Origin: Mesorhizobium metallidurans STM 2683
GTDB taxonomy: Bacteria > Pseudomonadota > Alphaproteobacteria > Rhizobiales > Rhizobiaceae
Assembly (NCBI RefSeq): GCF_000350085.1
Contig: NZ_CAUM01000067.1
Span: 1-64,000, forward strand
DNA: 64,000 bases
Reading direction: 5' to 3'
A program made the position numbers and the translations under genes. This document shows, piece by piece, positions 21,461 through 45,470 of the stretch (within the stretch, counting starts at the first letter, position 1; each line of letters starts with the position of its first letter). A model generated the notes under the pieces. The model saw nothing but the letters and a program-made list of their open reading frames with translations. It ran no database searches and had not been told where the DNA came from.

Positions 21461-22906
21461 CTATCGAACGAGGATGTTGCGGAATTGCCACGGGTCGTTT
21501 TTGTCGAGGTCTTCCGGGAACAGGCCAGGGCGGTTATCGAGCGGCGTCCAGTCGGTGTAGTAGCCCTTGACAGGTCCGAGATAGGGAGACTGCACTTCCA
21601 GGCAGCGCTTGTAATCCATTTCGTCGGCCTCGACGATGCCGGCTTCCGGATTTTCCAGCGCCCAGACCATGCCGGCCAGCACCGCTGAGGTAACCTGCAT
21701 GCCGGTCGCGTTCTGATAGGGCGCCAGCTTGCGGGCTGCGGCCAGCGACAATTGCGAGCCATACCAATAGGCGTTCTTGTCGTGGCCGTAGAGCAGCACG
21801 CCGAGCTCGTCGACGCCGTCGACCAGCTCATTCTCGTCGAGCACATGATAAGCGGCCTGCGGCTTGCCGGCGGCGCCGAAGATCTCGTGCATCGACAGCA
21901 CGGCATCGTTGCAGGGATGGTAGGCGTAGTGGCAGGTGGGGCGGTAATGCACCTTGCCCTTCTTGCCGCGCACGGTGAAGAAATCGGCGATCGATATCGC
22001 TTCATTGTGCGTCACCAGGAATCCGTATTGCGGGCCCGGCGTCGGGCACCAGGTGCGCACACGGGTGTTGGCGCCGGGCTGCTCCAGATAGATCGCGGCC
22101 TTGGAGCCATGCTTGTGCTTTCTGGCGTTCTTGGGCATCCATTTCTCATGCGTGCCCCAGCCGAGCTCGGCCGGCTGCATGCCTTCCGAAACGAAGCCTT
22201 CGACCGACCAGGTGTTCCAGAAGACATCCATCGGCTTCGGCTTCTTGGTGCGCTGGGTGTCGCGCTCGGCGATGTGAATGCCCTTGACGCCGGCCTTCTT
22301 CATCAGCTTGGCCCAGCCCTCGCGATCCTCCTGCCCCGGCTCCGAAAACTCCAGGCCAAGATCGGTGGCAAGGTTGACCAGCGCCTGCTTGACGAACCAC
22401 GAGACCATGCCGGGGTTGGCGCCGCAGGTGGAGATCGCCGTCGCGCCGCCGGGCTTGTCGTGCTTTTCCTTGATCATGGCTTCGCGCAACGCGTAGTTGG
22501 TGCGGCTGGCATTATCAGCCTTGGCGTCGAAATAGAACCCAAGCCATGGTTCGACGACGGTGTCGATGTAGAGCACGCCGAGCTTGCGGCAGAGCCGCAT
22601 CAGGTCCACCGAGCCGGTGTCGACCGACAAGTTGACGCAAAAGCCCTGGCCGCCGCCCTTGGTCAGAAGCGGCGTCAACAGCTTCTTGTAGTTCTTCTGT
22701 GTCACCGCTTCCTGGACGAAGGCGATCCCGCGTTCGTCGAGCAGCTTGCGGTCGGTATCGCGCGGGTCGACGACCGTCATGCGCGATTTGTCGAACTTGA
22801 AATGGCGTTCGATCAGCGGCAGCGTTCCCCGTCCGATCGAGCCGAAGCCGATCATCACGACAGGGCCGGTGATTTCACCGTAAACGGGCCAGTTTTCATT
22901 CGCCAT
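21461..22906 (-). CDS. hss: Homospermidine synthase
   Basis: Makes sym-homospermidine, a major rhizobial polyamine, from two putrescines (or putrescine plus spermidine) with NAD as a catalytic carrier. About 481 residues from ATG 22906 (MANENWPVYGEITG), preceded by AGGAG. The NAD-binding motif is VVMIGFGSIGRGTLP. The saccharopine-dehydrogenase-like fold continues with VVEPWLGFYFDAKADN, STCGANPGMVSWFVKQAL and the C-terminal GMVWALENPEAGIVEADEMD. Substrate putrescine could come from the ornithine decarboxylase at 43669. The gene stands alone. Confidence 0.93.
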   Translation of the reverse strand: MANENWPVYGEITGPVVMIGFGSIGRGTLPLIERHFKFDKSRMTVVDPRDTDRKLLDERGIAFVQEAVTQKNYKKLLTPLLTKGGGQGFCVNLSVDTGSVDLMRLCRKLGVLYIDTVVEPWLGFYFDAKADNASRTNYALREAMIKEKHDKPGGATAISTCGANPGMVSWFVKQALVNLATDLGLEFSEPGQEDREGWAKLMKKAGVKGIHIAERDTQRTKKPKPMDVFWNTWSVEGFVSEGMQPAELGWGTHEKWMPKNARKHKHGSKAAIYLEQPGANTRVRTWCPTPGPQYGFLVTHNEAISIADFFTVRGKKGKVHYRPTCHYAYHPCNDAVLSMHEIFGAAGKPQAAYHVLDENELVDGVDELGVLLYGHDKNAYWYGSQLSLAAARKLAPYQNATGMQVTSAVLAGMVWALENPEAGIVEADEMDYKRCLEVQSPYLGPVKGYYTDWTPLDNRPGLFPEDLDKNDPWQFRNILVR

Positions 22907-23016
22907 TTTATCGAACACTCCTAAAAACACAGGGAAAATCCGGCATTTCCTGCCGGACGACCAAGCGCTACACCACAGATCATTGTCACAAACCAGTGAA
23001 AAGCGCCAACCGCAGG

Positions 23017-41010: not shown

Positions 41011-41910
41011 TCAAGCGCTTTCACGCGTCTTGAACCACTGCACCAGGAAGTCGACGAAGACACGGACCTTTGCCGGCAGATAGCGGCGGTGTGGATAGAC
41101 GGCGAAAATGCCAGCGCCCGACAGGATGCGGTCGTCCAGCGCGGTCACCAGCCGACCACTATCGAGGTCGGGCGCAGCGATGAAATCCGGCAGTATGGTG
41201 AATCCCAGCCCCGACACGGCGGCAGCTCTTGCCGCCATCGGGCTGTTGACCTCAATCGGACCGGAGACCGAAACGCTCACAGTGTCGCTGCCGTCGCCCT
41301 TGAATTGCCAATTGTTCAGCCCGCGACCGTTGGTGTCGACGATACAGGGGATGCGAGCAAGGTCCTGGGCCCGCGCCGGCATGCCATGCTTGGCGATCAG
41401 CTCAGGAGATGCGCACAGCCGCACCGAAAACGGCGCCAGCCGCCTTGCGATCAGCGAGGAGTTTTCCAGCCGCGAAATGCGTACGGCGAGATCGAAACCT
41501 TCCTCGACCAGATCGACGAAGCGGTCGTCGAGATCAATATCGAGCACGATGTCGGGATACTGCTTGGCGAAGTCGATCAGCGACTGGCCGATCGGTGCGT
41601 CGGCAAAGGTGCGCGGCGCCGAAAGCTTGATCCTGCCGCGCACGTCGCCGGAGGATTCGCGTACCGCATCGGCCAGGCTGTCGACCTCGCGCACGATTTC
41701 GGAGGCGCGCCGGTAATAGGTGTGGCCGGCCTCCGTCATCGAGAATTGCCGCGTGGTGCGGTTCAACAGCAGCGCGCCGAGTTCGTCCTCCAACTCGCGC
41801 ACATATTTCGACAGCAGCGCCTTGGAGCGGCCGATTTTGCGCGCGGCCGCCGAAAAGCCTTCGGCCTCGACCACGTCGATGAAGGCGCGCATGCGGGTCA
41901 GCGTGTCCAT
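41011..41910 (-). CDS. LysR-family transcriptional regulator
   Basis: About 299 residues from ATG 41910 (MDTLTRMRAFIDVVEAEGFS). Winged helix-turn-helix at 1-60 (FSAAARKIGRSKALLSKYVRELE), followed by a periplasmic-binding-like effector domain (about 90-295). Subtype resembles the CrgA/DmlR group (IGQSLIDFAKQYPDIVLDIDLDDRFVDL described in part). Its start overlaps the end of the amidase gene by 13 bp, an unusual order for LysR, which is more often divergent from its target; they may be co-expressed. Confidence 0.92.
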   Translation of the reverse strand: MDTLTRMRAFIDVVEAEGFSAAARKIGRSKALLSKYVRELEDELGALLLNRTTRQFSMTEAGHTYYRRASEIVREVDSLADAVRESSGDVRGRIKLSAPRTFADAPIGQSLIDFAKQYPDIVLDIDLDDRFVDLVEEGFDLAVRISRLENSSLIARRLAPFSVRLCASPELIAKHGMPARAQDLARIPCIVDTNGRGLNNWQFKGDGSDTVSVSVSGPIEVNSPMAARAAAVSGLGFTILPDFIAAPDLDSGRLVTALDDRILSGAGIFAVYPHRRYLPAKVRVFVDFLVQWFKTRESA

Positions 41911-43157
41911 GTCATGGGCTCCCCATATTGTTCGCTCCCGGAGGTGGCAAGGATGCGCGCGGCGAGCGCCAGCAATTGCCGGTCGCTGTTCTTCGGCCCG
42001 AGCAATGAGAGGCCGAAGGGCGCGCCGTCGACCTTGCCCAGCGGCAACGTGATCTGCGGAAAGCCCGACAGGCCGGAAAGGCACAGCAACCTCAGCGCGC
42101 GCTCGCGATAGGTCTGCAAATCGTCGAAGGCAGCGGCCTTGAGCGGAGCGGCACTGGGGACGGTCGGCAGCACGAGCACGCCGTCCTCGCCAAGGCGCTC
42201 GGCAAGTTCGCGGCGGAAGGCATCGCGCCGCTCCGTTTCATGTCGCGCCGTCGCGGCGTCGATGGTCGCGCCGTGCTCGAAGCGTTCCTTGACGAAGGGG
42301 CCAAGCATGCGGCCGCTCCGCGAAATCCAGGCACCGTGGCTTTGCCAGGCCTCGTATCCCTGCAGCTTGCGGAAGCACCAATAGAGATCGTCGGTGGAAT
42401 GCGACAGCGGCGTGATCGTGCGCGGTGCGCCCGTCACCGAAGAGATGCGCTGGACCATGCCGGCATATTCATCGGTCTCTTGCTGGCCGAGCACGAGCCC
42501 GTCCAGCGCATCGAGCGCAAAGGGGCGCTGCAAGTCGCGAGGCTGCGGATCGTCGCCGAGCAGCACCGCGCCGACCTTGTCATAGGTGGCCATGTCCCTG
42601 GCGAACCATCCAAACGTATCGAAGGAAGGGGCGAGCGGCATGGTGCCGGCGAGCGAGATGCGGCCATGCGTCGTCCTGAGGCCGATCAGGCCGCAGAAAC
42701 CTGCCGGCGCGCGGATCGAGCCGCCGGTGTCGGACCCGGTGGCGATGTCGGCAAGACCGCCGGCGACCGCCGAGGCGGATCCGGACGACGAGCCGCCGGT
42801 GATACGGTCGGGTGCGGCCGGATTGATCGGCGAGGGGAAATGCGCGTTCAGCCCCATCAGGGAAAAGGCGAGCTCGTCGGTCTGCGTCTTGCCGACGAAG
42901 CGCGCGCCCGAATCAAGCAGCGCCTGGACTGCGGGCGCGGTTGCCGCGGCGGGCGAGGCTTCCTCATATTTTTGCGGATTGCCGCAGCCGGTGCGGTAGC
43001 CGGCGACGTCGAAAATGTCCTTGACGGCCAGCCGCAGGCCGGCAAGCGGGCCTGATTGCCCATTCGCAACTGGGATCTGGTCGAGGTCGAGAAAAGCGTT
43101 CAAAGGGCCGCGAGTGCCTGTCATGCGTTCAATATCCGGATACAGTCTGTCCAACAT
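41898..43157 (-). CDS. Amidase-signature family amidase
   Basis: 419 residues. Hydrolyses a carboxamide using a Ser-cisSer-Lys triad: Lys46 (LAVKDIFDVAG), the Ser cluster in GGSSSGSASA (121-130), and nucleophile Ser147 (GSDTGGSIRAP). Late motifs SGLSGFPQITLPLG and PFGLSLLGPKNSD are typical. It is shorter than GatA (about 480) and no gatB/gatC is adjacent, so it is a stand-alone amidase rather than the tRNA amidotransferase. Start ATG 43157; ATG 43124 is an alternative. Confidence 0.92.
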   Translation of the reverse strand: MLDRLYPDIERMTGTRGPLNAFLDLDQIPVANGQSGPLAGLRLAVKDIFDVAGYRTGCGNPQKYEEASPAAATAPAVQALLDSGARFVGKTQTDELAFSLMGLNAHFPSPINPAAPDRITGGSSSGSASAVAGGLADIATGSDTGGSIRAPAGFCGLIGLRTTHGRISLAGTMPLAPSFDTFGWFARDMATYDKVGAVLLGDDPQPRDLQRPFALDALDGLVLGQQETDEYAGMVQRISSVTGAPRTITPLSHSTDDLYWCFRKLQGYEAWQSHGAWISRSGRMLGPFVKERFEHGATIDAATARHETERRDAFRRELAERLGEDGVLVLPTVPSAAPLKAAAFDDLQTYRERALRLLCLSGLSGFPQITLPLGKVDGAPFGLSLLGPKNSDRQLLALAARILATSGSEQYGEPMTWTR

Positions 43158-43200: not shown

Positions 43201-43228
43201 TTGATTGTGAAACCCTTCGCTCTTATAT
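43201..43228 (+). promoter_or_regulatory. Possible promoter of the ornithine decarboxylase leader
   Basis: TTGATT (43201-43206), 16 bases, TTATAT (43223-43228) in an otherwise AT-rich patch. It would start RNA near 43235, giving a leader of about 430 nt. Assigned by eye. Confidence 0.45.
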
Positions 43229-43235
43229 CGCGCTT

Positions 43236-43668
43236 GCCCAAAGTCGCACGTGCCTGTGGGTGTCCGCCGATCCTCGAATGGTGAGGGCAATCGGTAAGGT
43301 AACTGGAGCCAACCCCTCCAGTCGGTTTAGTGGCCAACCACCAAACCGAGGACACCTTGAAGCAACGACGGTGCGGGCCTTTCTGGTGTTCTGCCGGTCG
43401 TCCAAAGACCGGGGTTACTGAAGAGGCACACCTTCATTGCCGGCAGTGCGGACGGGTCTCCCATCCAAGCCAAGGCAGACAAAGCGAACCGAGGCCGGGC
43501 AAGGCCAAGGTTCACCGCCGCGAGACGGCGATTCGTGGTTCCGGGGTCTCCACCGGCTGGTTCCATGGATTTTCGCCCCGCCTTTGTTTGACCGCGTGTT
43601 CGCGAGGCCGAGAGCCCGTGTCCCGCAGCCTTTGTGCACGCCGCAAGGCGTGATTGGAGAGACCCCGA
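43236..43668 (+). ncRNA. speF-type structured leader RNA
   Basis: About 430 bases without a credible gene separate the amidase start from the ornithine decarboxylase. Strong local structure is visible: ACTGGAG/CTCCAGT around 43302-43322, and a long stem CGGTTT-TGG/CCA-AAACCG at 43323-43350. Alphaproteobacteria are known to carry a conserved cis-regulatory motif called speF (Rfam) before this gene, and position, length and GC-rich folded character agree. I could not align it to the covariance model; start and end are approximate. It probably controls decarboxylase translation or transcription. Confidence 0.65.
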
Positions 43669-44801
43669 TGGCTACCCAGCGCATCCTTGACTTCCTCGCC
43701 ACCCGACGTCCGAGCGGCCCCTGCCTCGTCGTCGACCTCGATGTCGTGCGCGACAATTTCCGCGCCTTTCAGAAGGCGCTTCCCGATTCCAAGATCTACT
43801 ATGCGGTGAAAGCAAACCCGGCGCCGGAAATCCTGCGCCTCCTTGCTACGATGGGCTCGTCCTTCGACACCGCCTCCGTTGCCGAAGTCGAGATGGCGAT
43901 GGACGCCGGTGCGCCGGCGCATCGCATCTCCTTCGGCAACACCATCAAGAAGGAGCGTGACATCGCACGCGCCTACCAGCTCGGCATCCGGCTGTTCGCG
44001 GTCGACTGCGTCGAGGAGGTCGAGAAGATCGCCCGTGTCGCGCCAGCCGCCCGCGTGTTCTGCCGCGTGCTCACCGACGGCGCGGGCGCCGAGTGGCCGC
44101 TGTCGCGCAAGTTCGGCTGCGTGCCGGCGATGGCGGTCGACGTGCTGCGCCATGCCAAGTCGCTCGGCCTCGACGCCTATGGCGTGTCGTTCCATGTCGG
44201 CTCGCAGCAGACCGATTTGAACGCCTGGGACCGCGCGCTCGGCGACGCCAAGAAGGTGTTTTCGACGCTCGCCGAGGAAGGCATCGTCCTGAAGATGGTC
44301 AATATGGGCGGCGGCTTCCCGACCCGTTACCTCAGGGACGTGCCGGTGGCGCAGGACTATGGCCAGGCGATCTTTTCGGCGCTGCGCAGGCATTTCGGCA
44401 ACGCGATCCCGGAAACGATCATCGAACCGGGCCGCGGCATGGTCGGCAATGCCGGCGTCATCAAGTCGGAAGTCGTGCTGATCTCGAAGAAGGCCGACAA
44501 CGACAATGTGCGCTGGGTGTTCCTCGACATCGGCAAGTTCGGCGGTCTCGCCGAGACGATGGACGAGGCGATCCGCTACGCGATCACGACTGCCTATGAC
44601 GGCACCGAGACCGCGCCTTGCGTGCTCGCCGGCCCGACCTGCGATTCGGCCGACGTGATGTACGAGAAGACGCCGTATCCGCTGCCCTTGTCGCTGACCA
44701 TCGGCGACGACGTGCTGATCGAGGGCACCGGCGCCTACACCACCACCTATTCGGCGGTCGCGTTCAACGGCTTCGAGCCTCTCCGATCCTACGTGATCTG
44801 A
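43669..44801 (+). CDS. speF: Ornithine decarboxylase (speF/group IV type)
   Basis: Decarboxylates ornithine (perhaps lysine) to putrescine with PLP. 377 residues from ATG 43669, preceded by GGAGAG; the open frame continues upstream to 43437 but only through the leader. It has the alanine-racemase-like fold: Lys48 in YYAVKANPAPEIL, HVGSQQTD, GGGFPTRY, EPGRGMVGNAG, and the active-site Cys in GPTCDSADVMYE. This is the eukaryote-like ODC/LODC class. Putrescine would feed homospermidine synthase (21461). Confidence 0.95.
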
Positions 44802-44897: not shown

Positions 44898-45470
44898 ATG
44901 GAAATGCCAGTTGAAATTGTAGGCCGCTCGCCGGCTTTTTTGATCGTCGCCGAAACCGCTGCCGATATCGCGGCGCGCGAGGCTTTGCTCGACCGCGCGA
45001 TGGGACCGAAACGCAGGAAGAAATCCTCCGAAAAGCTGCGGCGCGGCCGCCGGCCTTCGGAAGGCCTGGCCTTTGTCGCGCGCGATGCGTCGGGTGCGGT
45101 CACCGGCACCGTTCGGATGTGGGACGTGGTGCTGGGCGAGGGCGGTCAGGCGGCGCTTCTGCTCGGTCCGCTCGCTGTCGATCCGGCGCTCAAGAATGCC
45201 GGCATCGGCTCGGCGCTGATGCGCCATGCCGTGGCGGAGGCCGCGCGGCTTGGCCACACCGCGATCCTGCTCGTCGGCGACGCTCCTTACTACGGGCGTT
45301 TCGGGTTCTCGGCCGCAGAGACCGGCGCGCTTGCCATGCCGGGGCCCTATGAGCGGCATCGCCTGCTGGCGCTGGAGCTGGCGGACGGCGCGCTCAACGA
45401 TGTTCAGGGCACGCTGAAGGCGGCGGGACGGAAGCTGAAGGCGCCTGTGGCGCTGACCGTCGCCGCCTGA
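44898..45470 (+). CDS. GNAT N-acetyltransferase (YhbS-like)
   Basis: 190 residues. A single GNAT domain (about 8-165) with the acetyl-CoA loop LGPLAVDPALKNAGIGSALM and VGDAPYYGRFGFSAAET, characteristic of the YhbS/COG3153 group. An extra basic insertion (GPKRRKKSSEKLRRGRRPSE, about 36-55) lies before the core. Substrate unknown. It follows ornithine decarboxylase by 96 bp in the same direction, so acetylation of a polyamine is conceivable but not shown. Confidence 0.88.
   Translation: MEMPVEIVGRSPAFLIVAETAADIAAREALLDRAMGPKRRKKSSEKLRRGRRPSEGLAFVARDASGAVTGTVRMWDVVLGEGGQAALLLGPLAVDPALKNAGIGSALMRHAVAEAARLGHTAILLVGDAPYYGRFGFSAAETGALAMPGPYERHRLLALELADGALNDVQGTLKAAGRKLKAPVALTVAA

Follow-up and report, generated by a model that had tools for sequence, protein, structure and literature searches.

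The window analyzed here, a stretch of 64,000 nt from Mesorhizobium metallidurans STM 2683, contains an ornithine decarboxylase (ODC) gene separated by a gap of 510 nt from a divergent amidase gene. The best PDB chains found by phmmer for its 377-aa product were lysine/ornithine and ornithine decarboxylases; no NCBIfam cut-off was reached by the protein, the lysA model giving 183.5 of 297.9 bits. The ODC relatives kept (best 80 of 566) were 98–91% identical and lay nearly all on contigs named Mesorhizobium. The start codon of ODC, an ATG, lies at 43668–43670 of the forward strand rather than beginning at 43669 as an earlier note on this DNA had it, so that the leader end given there (43668) already falls on its first base. 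Downstream of ODC, a gene at 44898–45470 (forward strand) showed weak acetyltransferase-type matches, with NCBIfam scores far under the cut-off. The features referred to below are the following:

21461–22930, reverse strand: homospermidine synthase (HSS) gene; phmmer E 6.8e-243 to PDB 4plp, 21 kb from ODC.
41898–43157, reverse strand: divergent amidase gene, bounding the gap before ODC.
43201–43229, forward strand: putative promoter, TTGATT (43201–43206), 17 nt and TATATC (43224–43229), read from the sequence.
43236–43382, forward strand: ar45 domain (Rfam RF02347), the 5' half of the leader, 147 nt; cmscan 159.2 bits, E 8.7e-37.
43236–43259, forward strand: near-invariant 5' block A5, GCCCAAAGTCGCACGTGCCTGTGG; fuzzy match in 168/170 loci.
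43236–43239, forward strand: GCCC, putative left strand of the State T stem, pairing with GGGC at 43375–43378 (folding; compensatory rewrites elsewhere).
43362–43378, forward strand: shared strand GCAACGACGGUGCGGGC, predicted partner of the 5' end in State T and of the speF strand 43417–43440 in State R (covariation and folding).
43379–43387, forward strand: U-run equivalent CUUUCUGGU, a six-U run in most families but broken here; pairs with ACUGAAGAGGC in State R.
43392–43538, forward strand: speF leader (Rfam RF00518); cmscan 88.2 bits.
43394–43412, forward strand: P3 hairpin with a UCCAA loop; covarying stem, columns 48–68 of alignment A1.
43417–43440, forward strand: speF strand ACUGAAGAGGC..CACC..UUGC, which captures the ar45 strand in State R (covariation).
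43446–43451, forward strand: near-invariant GUGCGG; its pairing with CGCAC of A5 (P1) is without covariation support.
43450–43466, forward strand: P4 hairpin GGACGGG-UCU-CCCAUCC; 3' strand, candidate anti-Shine-Dalgarno; 5' strand, resembling a Shine-Dalgarno.
43541–43556, forward strand: P5 hairpin CCGG-GGUCUCCA-CCGG with a conserved UCCA loop.
43656–43665, forward strand: Shine-Dalgarno (SD) region GGAGAGACCC, pairing with GGGUCUCCC (43454–43462) in the full-leader fold (covariation).
43668–44801, forward strand: ODC gene.

The 432 nt from 43236 to 43667 bear out the proposal of a structured leader of about 430 nt before the decarboxylase. The strong stems ascribed to it were also recovered, with a minimum free energy of −192.2 kcal/mol compared with −172.6 (sd 6.6) in shuffles (z −2.98; 0/100 shuffles equally stable). 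Its identification as an alphaproteobacterial speF leader directly upstream of an ODC of the COG0019 type holds too, given the 88.2-bit covariance match of the Rfam model. At gathering thresholds (37 bits for RF00518 and 40 bits for RF02347, both exceeded), ar45 and speF were the sole Rfam matches in the window, with 9 nt between the models and a joint span of 43236–43538; RF00518 had a single match in the whole genome. A custom model, R1, with the window sequence included in its build, scored 133.1 bits at 43349–43478. A TTG-type −35 element was present at the matching distance in 103/105 nonredundant leaders as a raw count, and the promoter-like block together with the near-invariant 5' block would place the leader start at about 43236. 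Beyond the earlier note, the first 147 nt are assigned here to ar45, and a candidate expression platform is proposed, made of the stem before the U-run plus an SD-sequestering strand.

RF00518 matches were found in 145 of the 297 genomes of the order, and R1 matches in 147, one per genome, the latter count being partly a product of construction since most of the 83 sequences behind R1 come from those same 297 genomes. R1 also matched in 16/385 genomes of the class, 11 of these outside the order, and in 1/43, 2/3, 7/10 and 10/100 genomes of four further groups overlapping the order and class sets. ODC lay downstream in 90/90 loci selected solely on the speF RNA (L001–L030 and L111–L170), in 16/16 class-search loci, one of them the window itself, and in 13/13 further loci. 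As the 147 element-carrying genomes all fall among the 151 that carry ODC (of 297) and ODC lay downstream in every one of these loci, the element belongs to the ODC gene. Block A5 was found in 168/170 loci, block A3 in 169/170, and both in 168/170.

For the comparison of leaders, 219 oriented loci were available, five of which (the repeats L171, L178 and L181, and L179 and L180) stayed outside the swap tests. All anchors were present in 204 of the remaining 214, giving 106 nonredundant leaders; 104 leaders with a long enough 3' region made up the SD x P4 swap set, and 102 the State T/R folding set. The strict sets comprised 62 strictly nonredundant leaders and 55 distinct combinations inside Mesorhizobium, and 79 of 81 Mesorhizobium leaders were long enough for the frame test. 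Two overflow values, 'upstream of TSS' (near 949) and 'SD22 x 3p leader' (923), were left out, and the U-run-helix index of the 102-leader folding was not used because it is wrong for CUUU-type leaders.

ar45 carries the annotation of an sRNA gene, and covariation between its 3' strand and a strand of speF indicates that the two are one RNA. In alignment A1 (83 rows), State R columns 24/94 hold UA in 48 rows, GC in 30 and AU in 2, and columns 25/93 hold AU in 52 and UA in 28. Own State R strands beat swapped ones across the 106 nonredundant leaders (z −13, 0/2000), the GNNG part still giving z −6.8 in the 62 strictly nonredundant ones. Moreover, in L148, L156 and L201 the U-run is one U shorter and its State R partner one A shorter. 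In RNAfold predictions, the probability of State R exceeded 0.5 in 91/102 leaders once the RNA extended through P4. Alternatively, ar45 could be an sRNA gene of its own, acting in trans and simply situated upstream of an unrelated speF leader, in line with its Rfam type (Gene; sRNA), with the binding of the S. meliloti RNA SmrC45 by Hfq (described in PMC2848018) and with its expression apart from speF in B. bacilliformis, where the Northern blots of PMC7717549 display ar45 separately from a speF RNA of >700 nt. This explanation is highly improbable in our judgment, given the covariation of the ar45 3' strand with speF, the joint presence of both blocks in 168/170 loci and the distance of only 9 nt between the models in the window. 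The strand that ar45 shares with speF speaks for a leader product more than for an independent transcript, although such a terminated product may still act in trans.

The same ar45 strand is predicted to pair with the 5' end of the leader in State T. In the window (L001), this state had a probability of 0.96 for a transcript stopping at the U-run and of 0 for one reaching through P4; likewise, RNAfold gave it a probability >0.5 in 100/102 leaders ending at the U-run and in 0/102 extending through P4. States T and R thus appear to be mutually exclusive, so that ar45 probably arises from the ODC leader by premature termination. Over all 106 nonredundant leaders the State T strands produced no swap signal (z 0.3), as these strands are mostly invariant. 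Divergent lineages have other versions of the stem, with compensatory changes: ACCC:GGGU (L195, L196), CCGUC:GACGG (L186), GUCCGU with ACG-C-GGC (L218, L220) and GACGC:GCGUC (L208), with weaker forms in L190–L192 and L194. Own partners were equalled or beaten by 6/720 permutations of six lineages and by 6/5040 of seven, in a comparison that suggests conservation of the stem from a few lineages, selected because a stem strand departs from consensus, and in which two (f23a and f23b) pair weakly.

A six-U run occupies the U-run site in 84/106 leaders, compared with 4/748 control windows. At the two U-run columns that face G in State R, U was found in 67 and 79 and C in 14 and 4 of the 83 rows, and this retention of U opposite G suggests that the run is conserved for its own sake. 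Its role as an antiterminator target was considered and dropped, since the State R partner is transcribed only ~30–48 nt later. In S. meliloti, PMC2780559 places the 3' end of SmrC45, a 181-nt RNA, at the U-run of a Rho-independent terminator, and a 148-nt RNA, SmelC706, is listed beside RF00518 in PMC2873474. ar45 is also among the RNAs reported from dRNA-seq and Term-seq in Methylosinus sporium (PMC12403871). These published ar45, SmrC45, SmelC706 and speF transcripts fit a one-leader model; the disagreement between the lengths given in the S. meliloti reports, 181 and 148 nt, counts against it.

In the window itself, CUUUCU stands in place of U6 where an intrinsic terminator would have a U-run after its stem. 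As the run is interrupted, termination is probably weak in Mesorhizobium, a genus that has probably lost or weakened this step. Consistent with this, Smr45C has not been discovered in M. huakuii 7653R according to PMC5596092, which lists a 325-nt entry with RF00518, an absence that agrees with doubtful termination in the window without proving it.

A second pair of competing helices was found between P4 and the ribosome site. The strands of P4 covary with each other (own versus swapped, z −7.5), and the SD with the P4 region: own combinations beat swapped ones with z −6.8 (0/2000) in 104 leaders, z −6.3 (0/2000) for the 3' half of P4, and z −5.3 and −3.8 in the 62 strict leaders and the 55 Mesorhizobium combinations, respectively (0/5000 each). 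Four control regions gave z −0.5 to +1.8 against the SD, and P3 and the region from ATG−71 to ATG−26 gave −1.3 and −1.7, a weak lean to the SD. Examples of matched P4 and SD sequences are UCCCGUUCCAA with UUGGAACGGGA (L015), CCCCUUC with GAAGGGG (L152), CACCCG with CGGGUG (L125) and CCCAUUCCAU with GUGGAAUGGG (L221). The 3' strand of P4 fits both its own 5' strand and the SD, hence the resemblance of the 5' strand to a ribosome site. When the window sequence was folded, RNA ending just past P4 formed this hairpin, and the full leader paired GGGUCUCCC with the SD instead; P4 with at least 3 expected pairs was obtained in 81/106 leaders ending after P4 and in 42/106 full leaders. The candidate expression platform thus displays, by computation, the mutually exclusive pairings typical of riboswitches. 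Two results count against the proposed P4:SD pairing: in full-leader folding the SD core lay on P4 with P>0.5 in only 49/106 leaders, even if it was paired somewhere in 100/106, and a contiguous P4:SD helix of at least 8 bp was present in 33/104 leaders, only mildly above the 20% of swapped pairs.

Two other candidate pairings found no support. For the UCUCCA loop of P5, considered as an anti-SD, the regions ATG−71 to ATG−26 and be+45 to be+90 gave z −1.7 (105/2000) and z −0.5, respectively. P1, formed in the energy fold between UCGCAC of A5 and GUGCGG, gave an own-versus-swapped z of 0.2; moreover, GUGCGG changes to GUGAGG in three nonredundant leaders with no matching change among the pair counts.

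Taken as a whole, the comparative evidence supports a single RNA, State R, the P4 and P4/SD pairings, the exclusivity of the alternatives and, in divergent lineages, the rewriting of the State T stem. The reading that we favor, with a probability of about 0.6, is that of one cis-acting leader RNA taking two successive decisions, on transcription and then on translation, as the two sets of alternative pairings would provide a transcription checkpoint followed by a translation checkpoint. During synthesis of the first ~150 nt, GCCC at the 5' end would pair with the GGGC beside the U-run to form State T, and a halt of RNA polymerase at this run may release the ar45/SmrC45 RNA. If transcription passes the U-run, the emerging speF strand would capture the ar45 strand and the run itself (State R). 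In the second step, the 3' strand of P4 would lie either on its own 5' strand, leaving the ribosome site free (ON), or on the SD of ODC (OFF). A signal presumably biases these choices; by the logic of the pathway, it could be a polyamine from the product side, or a protein reporting on such a polyamine. Termination in vivo, the coupling of both steps and the signal itself are what we infer here. With its interrupted U-run, this Mesorhizobium probably depends mainly on the second step.

States T and R could instead be folding intermediates of no regulatory meaning, SD sequestration alone being the active step. The broken U-run of the window and the silence of the State T swap test over all leaders would agree with this; the compensated rewriting of the State T stem in divergent lineages, the frequency of the six-U run relative to control windows and the published short RNAs of roughly matching size (as given in PMC2780559 and PMC2873474) speak against it, and we consider it rather unlikely. 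Going further than the two-decision leader, we tentatively envisage a riboregulator with two checkpoints and two rounds of competition for a single strand. Its early fold would terminate transcription and free an aptamer-like, Hfq-bound ar45, possibly active in trans; escaping transcripts would then be gated by a hairpin with an SD-mimicking 5' strand, which competes with the SD for one anti-SD strand. If this were true, other genes would be tied to polyamine synthesis through a trans-active ar45, an RNA whose function a 2025 paper describes as unclear (PMC12403871).

Regarding the signal, the statement of the earlier note that ligand and mechanism of speF are not established agrees with what is written on this motif in PMC1273637, PMC7717549 and PMC11477304. 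Its suggestion of polyamine or ornithine sensing is weakened by the binding experiments on the A. tumefaciens RNA, in which ornithine, lysine, meso-diaminopimelate, putrescine, cadaverine and spermidine are listed as having no measurable binding (PMC1273637). A protein or an Hfq/RNase complex could sense the leader in place of a small molecule, with the UCCA loops of P3 and P5 as contact sites. The failure of these six pathway metabolites to bind, the UCCA loop of P5 (96/105 nonredundant leaders, compared with 10% of shuffles), the occurrence of UCCA also in the P3 loop and the association of SmrC45 with Hfq reported in PMC2848018 favor such a protein; on the other hand, the long, near-invariant internal-loop sequences of A5 and A3 look to us like a folded aptamer. 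Protein sensing is therefore possible in our opinion, if on the unlikely side.

The binding list of PMC1273637 does not include homospermidine, and the leader could be a riboswitch for this polyamine. HSS (E <= 1e-60) and the element were both present in 141 and both absent in 135 of the 297 genomes; in the window the HSS gene lies 21 kb from ODC, and in other genomes (e.g. G195, G173 and G146) it directly follows ODC on the same strand within 240 bp. Against this, the element goes with ODC, all 147 of its genomes being included in the 151 with ODC, and it is missing from all 15 genomes with a match for HSS and none for ODC (the HSS match being weak, E about 1e-61 to 1e-71, in three). Furthermore, no HSS match was obtained in six genomes that carry the element, of which five (G044, G116, G157, G164 and G271) have a completeness of 93% or more; this weakens an obligate homospermidine ligand. 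A homospermidine riboswitch is thus improbable, and homospermidine is unlikely as the sole possible signal.

The gammaproteobacterial speF leader, which is also a long leader before an ornithine decarboxylase, acts through the ribosome-arrest peptide SpeFL. An equivalent peptide in the present leader would be in accordance with the same gene function, the length of the leader and the GTG of block A5, which is present in 106/106 leaders and opens a 15-codon frame whose stop is kept in 64/79 Mesorhizobium leaders. Over the 106 leaders, this GTG opens frames of anything between 6 and 170 codons, and its presence is hence explained by conservation of the RNA. The open frame at 43330–43653, put forward by the earlier note as a possible regulatory peptide, exists in the window and is not conserved among Mesorhizobium leaders: the triplet at 43330 is a start codon in 31/79, the length of the stretch is a multiple of 3 in 21/79, and no stop interrupts it in 47/79. 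A TTG start at 43437, in frame with ODC, was rejected as well, its stretch being divisible by 3 in just 19/79 Mesorhizobium leaders. ATG occurs within the A5, A3 and speF-core blocks in just 3, 1 and 1 of the 106 leaders, and an ATG frame behind a purine-rich site in 7/106. No conserved short ORF of the SpeFL type was found in the 79 Mesorhizobium or the 106 nonredundant leaders, a difference from the gammaproteobacterial leader that makes an arrest peptide here barely credible. Work on the Salmonella speF leader is described in PMC6386406.

The closest known system is the speF motif (RF00518) itself, described in 2005 by Corbino et al. without a ligand being found (PMC1273637), as it is the same element before the same gene in the same bacterial class. 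In that description the conserved 5' region, insertion included, and the ~80-nt core had already been united into a single extended element, and no structure could be assigned to the last 150 nt, whereas pairing between the 3' strand of P4 and the SD, as well as the State T stem, finds comparative support here. A revision of the speF model by Greenlee et al. in 2018, which according to PMC7266159 added conserved sequence and structure, may overlap with P4. The alpha-r45 family (RF02347, SmrC45, SmelC706) is the same as the first 147 nt of the leader, and termination at its U-run had been proposed earlier in PMC2780559; the difference is that we read it not as an independent gene but as the 5' part of the ODC leader released by termination, with one strand in common with speF. 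The spermidine riboswitch, a variant of the SAM aptamer, likewise represents RNA sensing of a bacterial polyamine (PMC10853860); the main text of that paper makes no mention of speF, homospermidine or ornithine decarboxylase. Within the portions of the open-licence literature consulted, no paper joined ar45 and speF as exclusive folds or named an anti-Shine-Dalgarno strand. With the family already published, what is new here would be comparative: the union of ar45 and speF, the competing State T stem and the pairing between the 3' strand of P4 and the SD.

If speF and ar45 are one switch, two puzzles merge into a single one with assayable states. This would guide the design of RNAs (full-length, running from the 5' start beyond the initiation codon of ODC), the choice of helices to break and restore, and the 3' ends to seek; it also warns that treating ar45 as a free-standing sRNA may mislead.

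Several loci depart from the common arrangement. A second RF00518 match, of 27.8 bits and under the cut-off, is present in a Mesorhizobium genome (G265, C30:408282–408384), where R1 gave only one match, at the ODC leader. Two ODC genes (L206 and L207, in genomes G043 and G083) lack the element, and the stretch just before them resembles by eye what we take to be the end of a spermidine-synthase-type gene. In the clade formed by L190–L192, L194, L148, L156 and L201, the big insertion arm of ar45 is shrunk to a short loop, leaving an ar45 domain of ~50–55 nt that amounts to a natural minimal construct. A shrunken leader was also found in L208 (genome G003; ODC 58% identical), which R1 did not match and which keeps just an ar45-like hairpin, GACGC..GCGUC, followed by U5; the likely ODC start comes soon after this hairpin and is preceded by AAAGGGGG, complementary to the CCUUUUU run. 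Finally, the leader of L224 (genome G779) is ~280 nt longer than those of its relatives, with the insert located between UUGCC and the P4 region.
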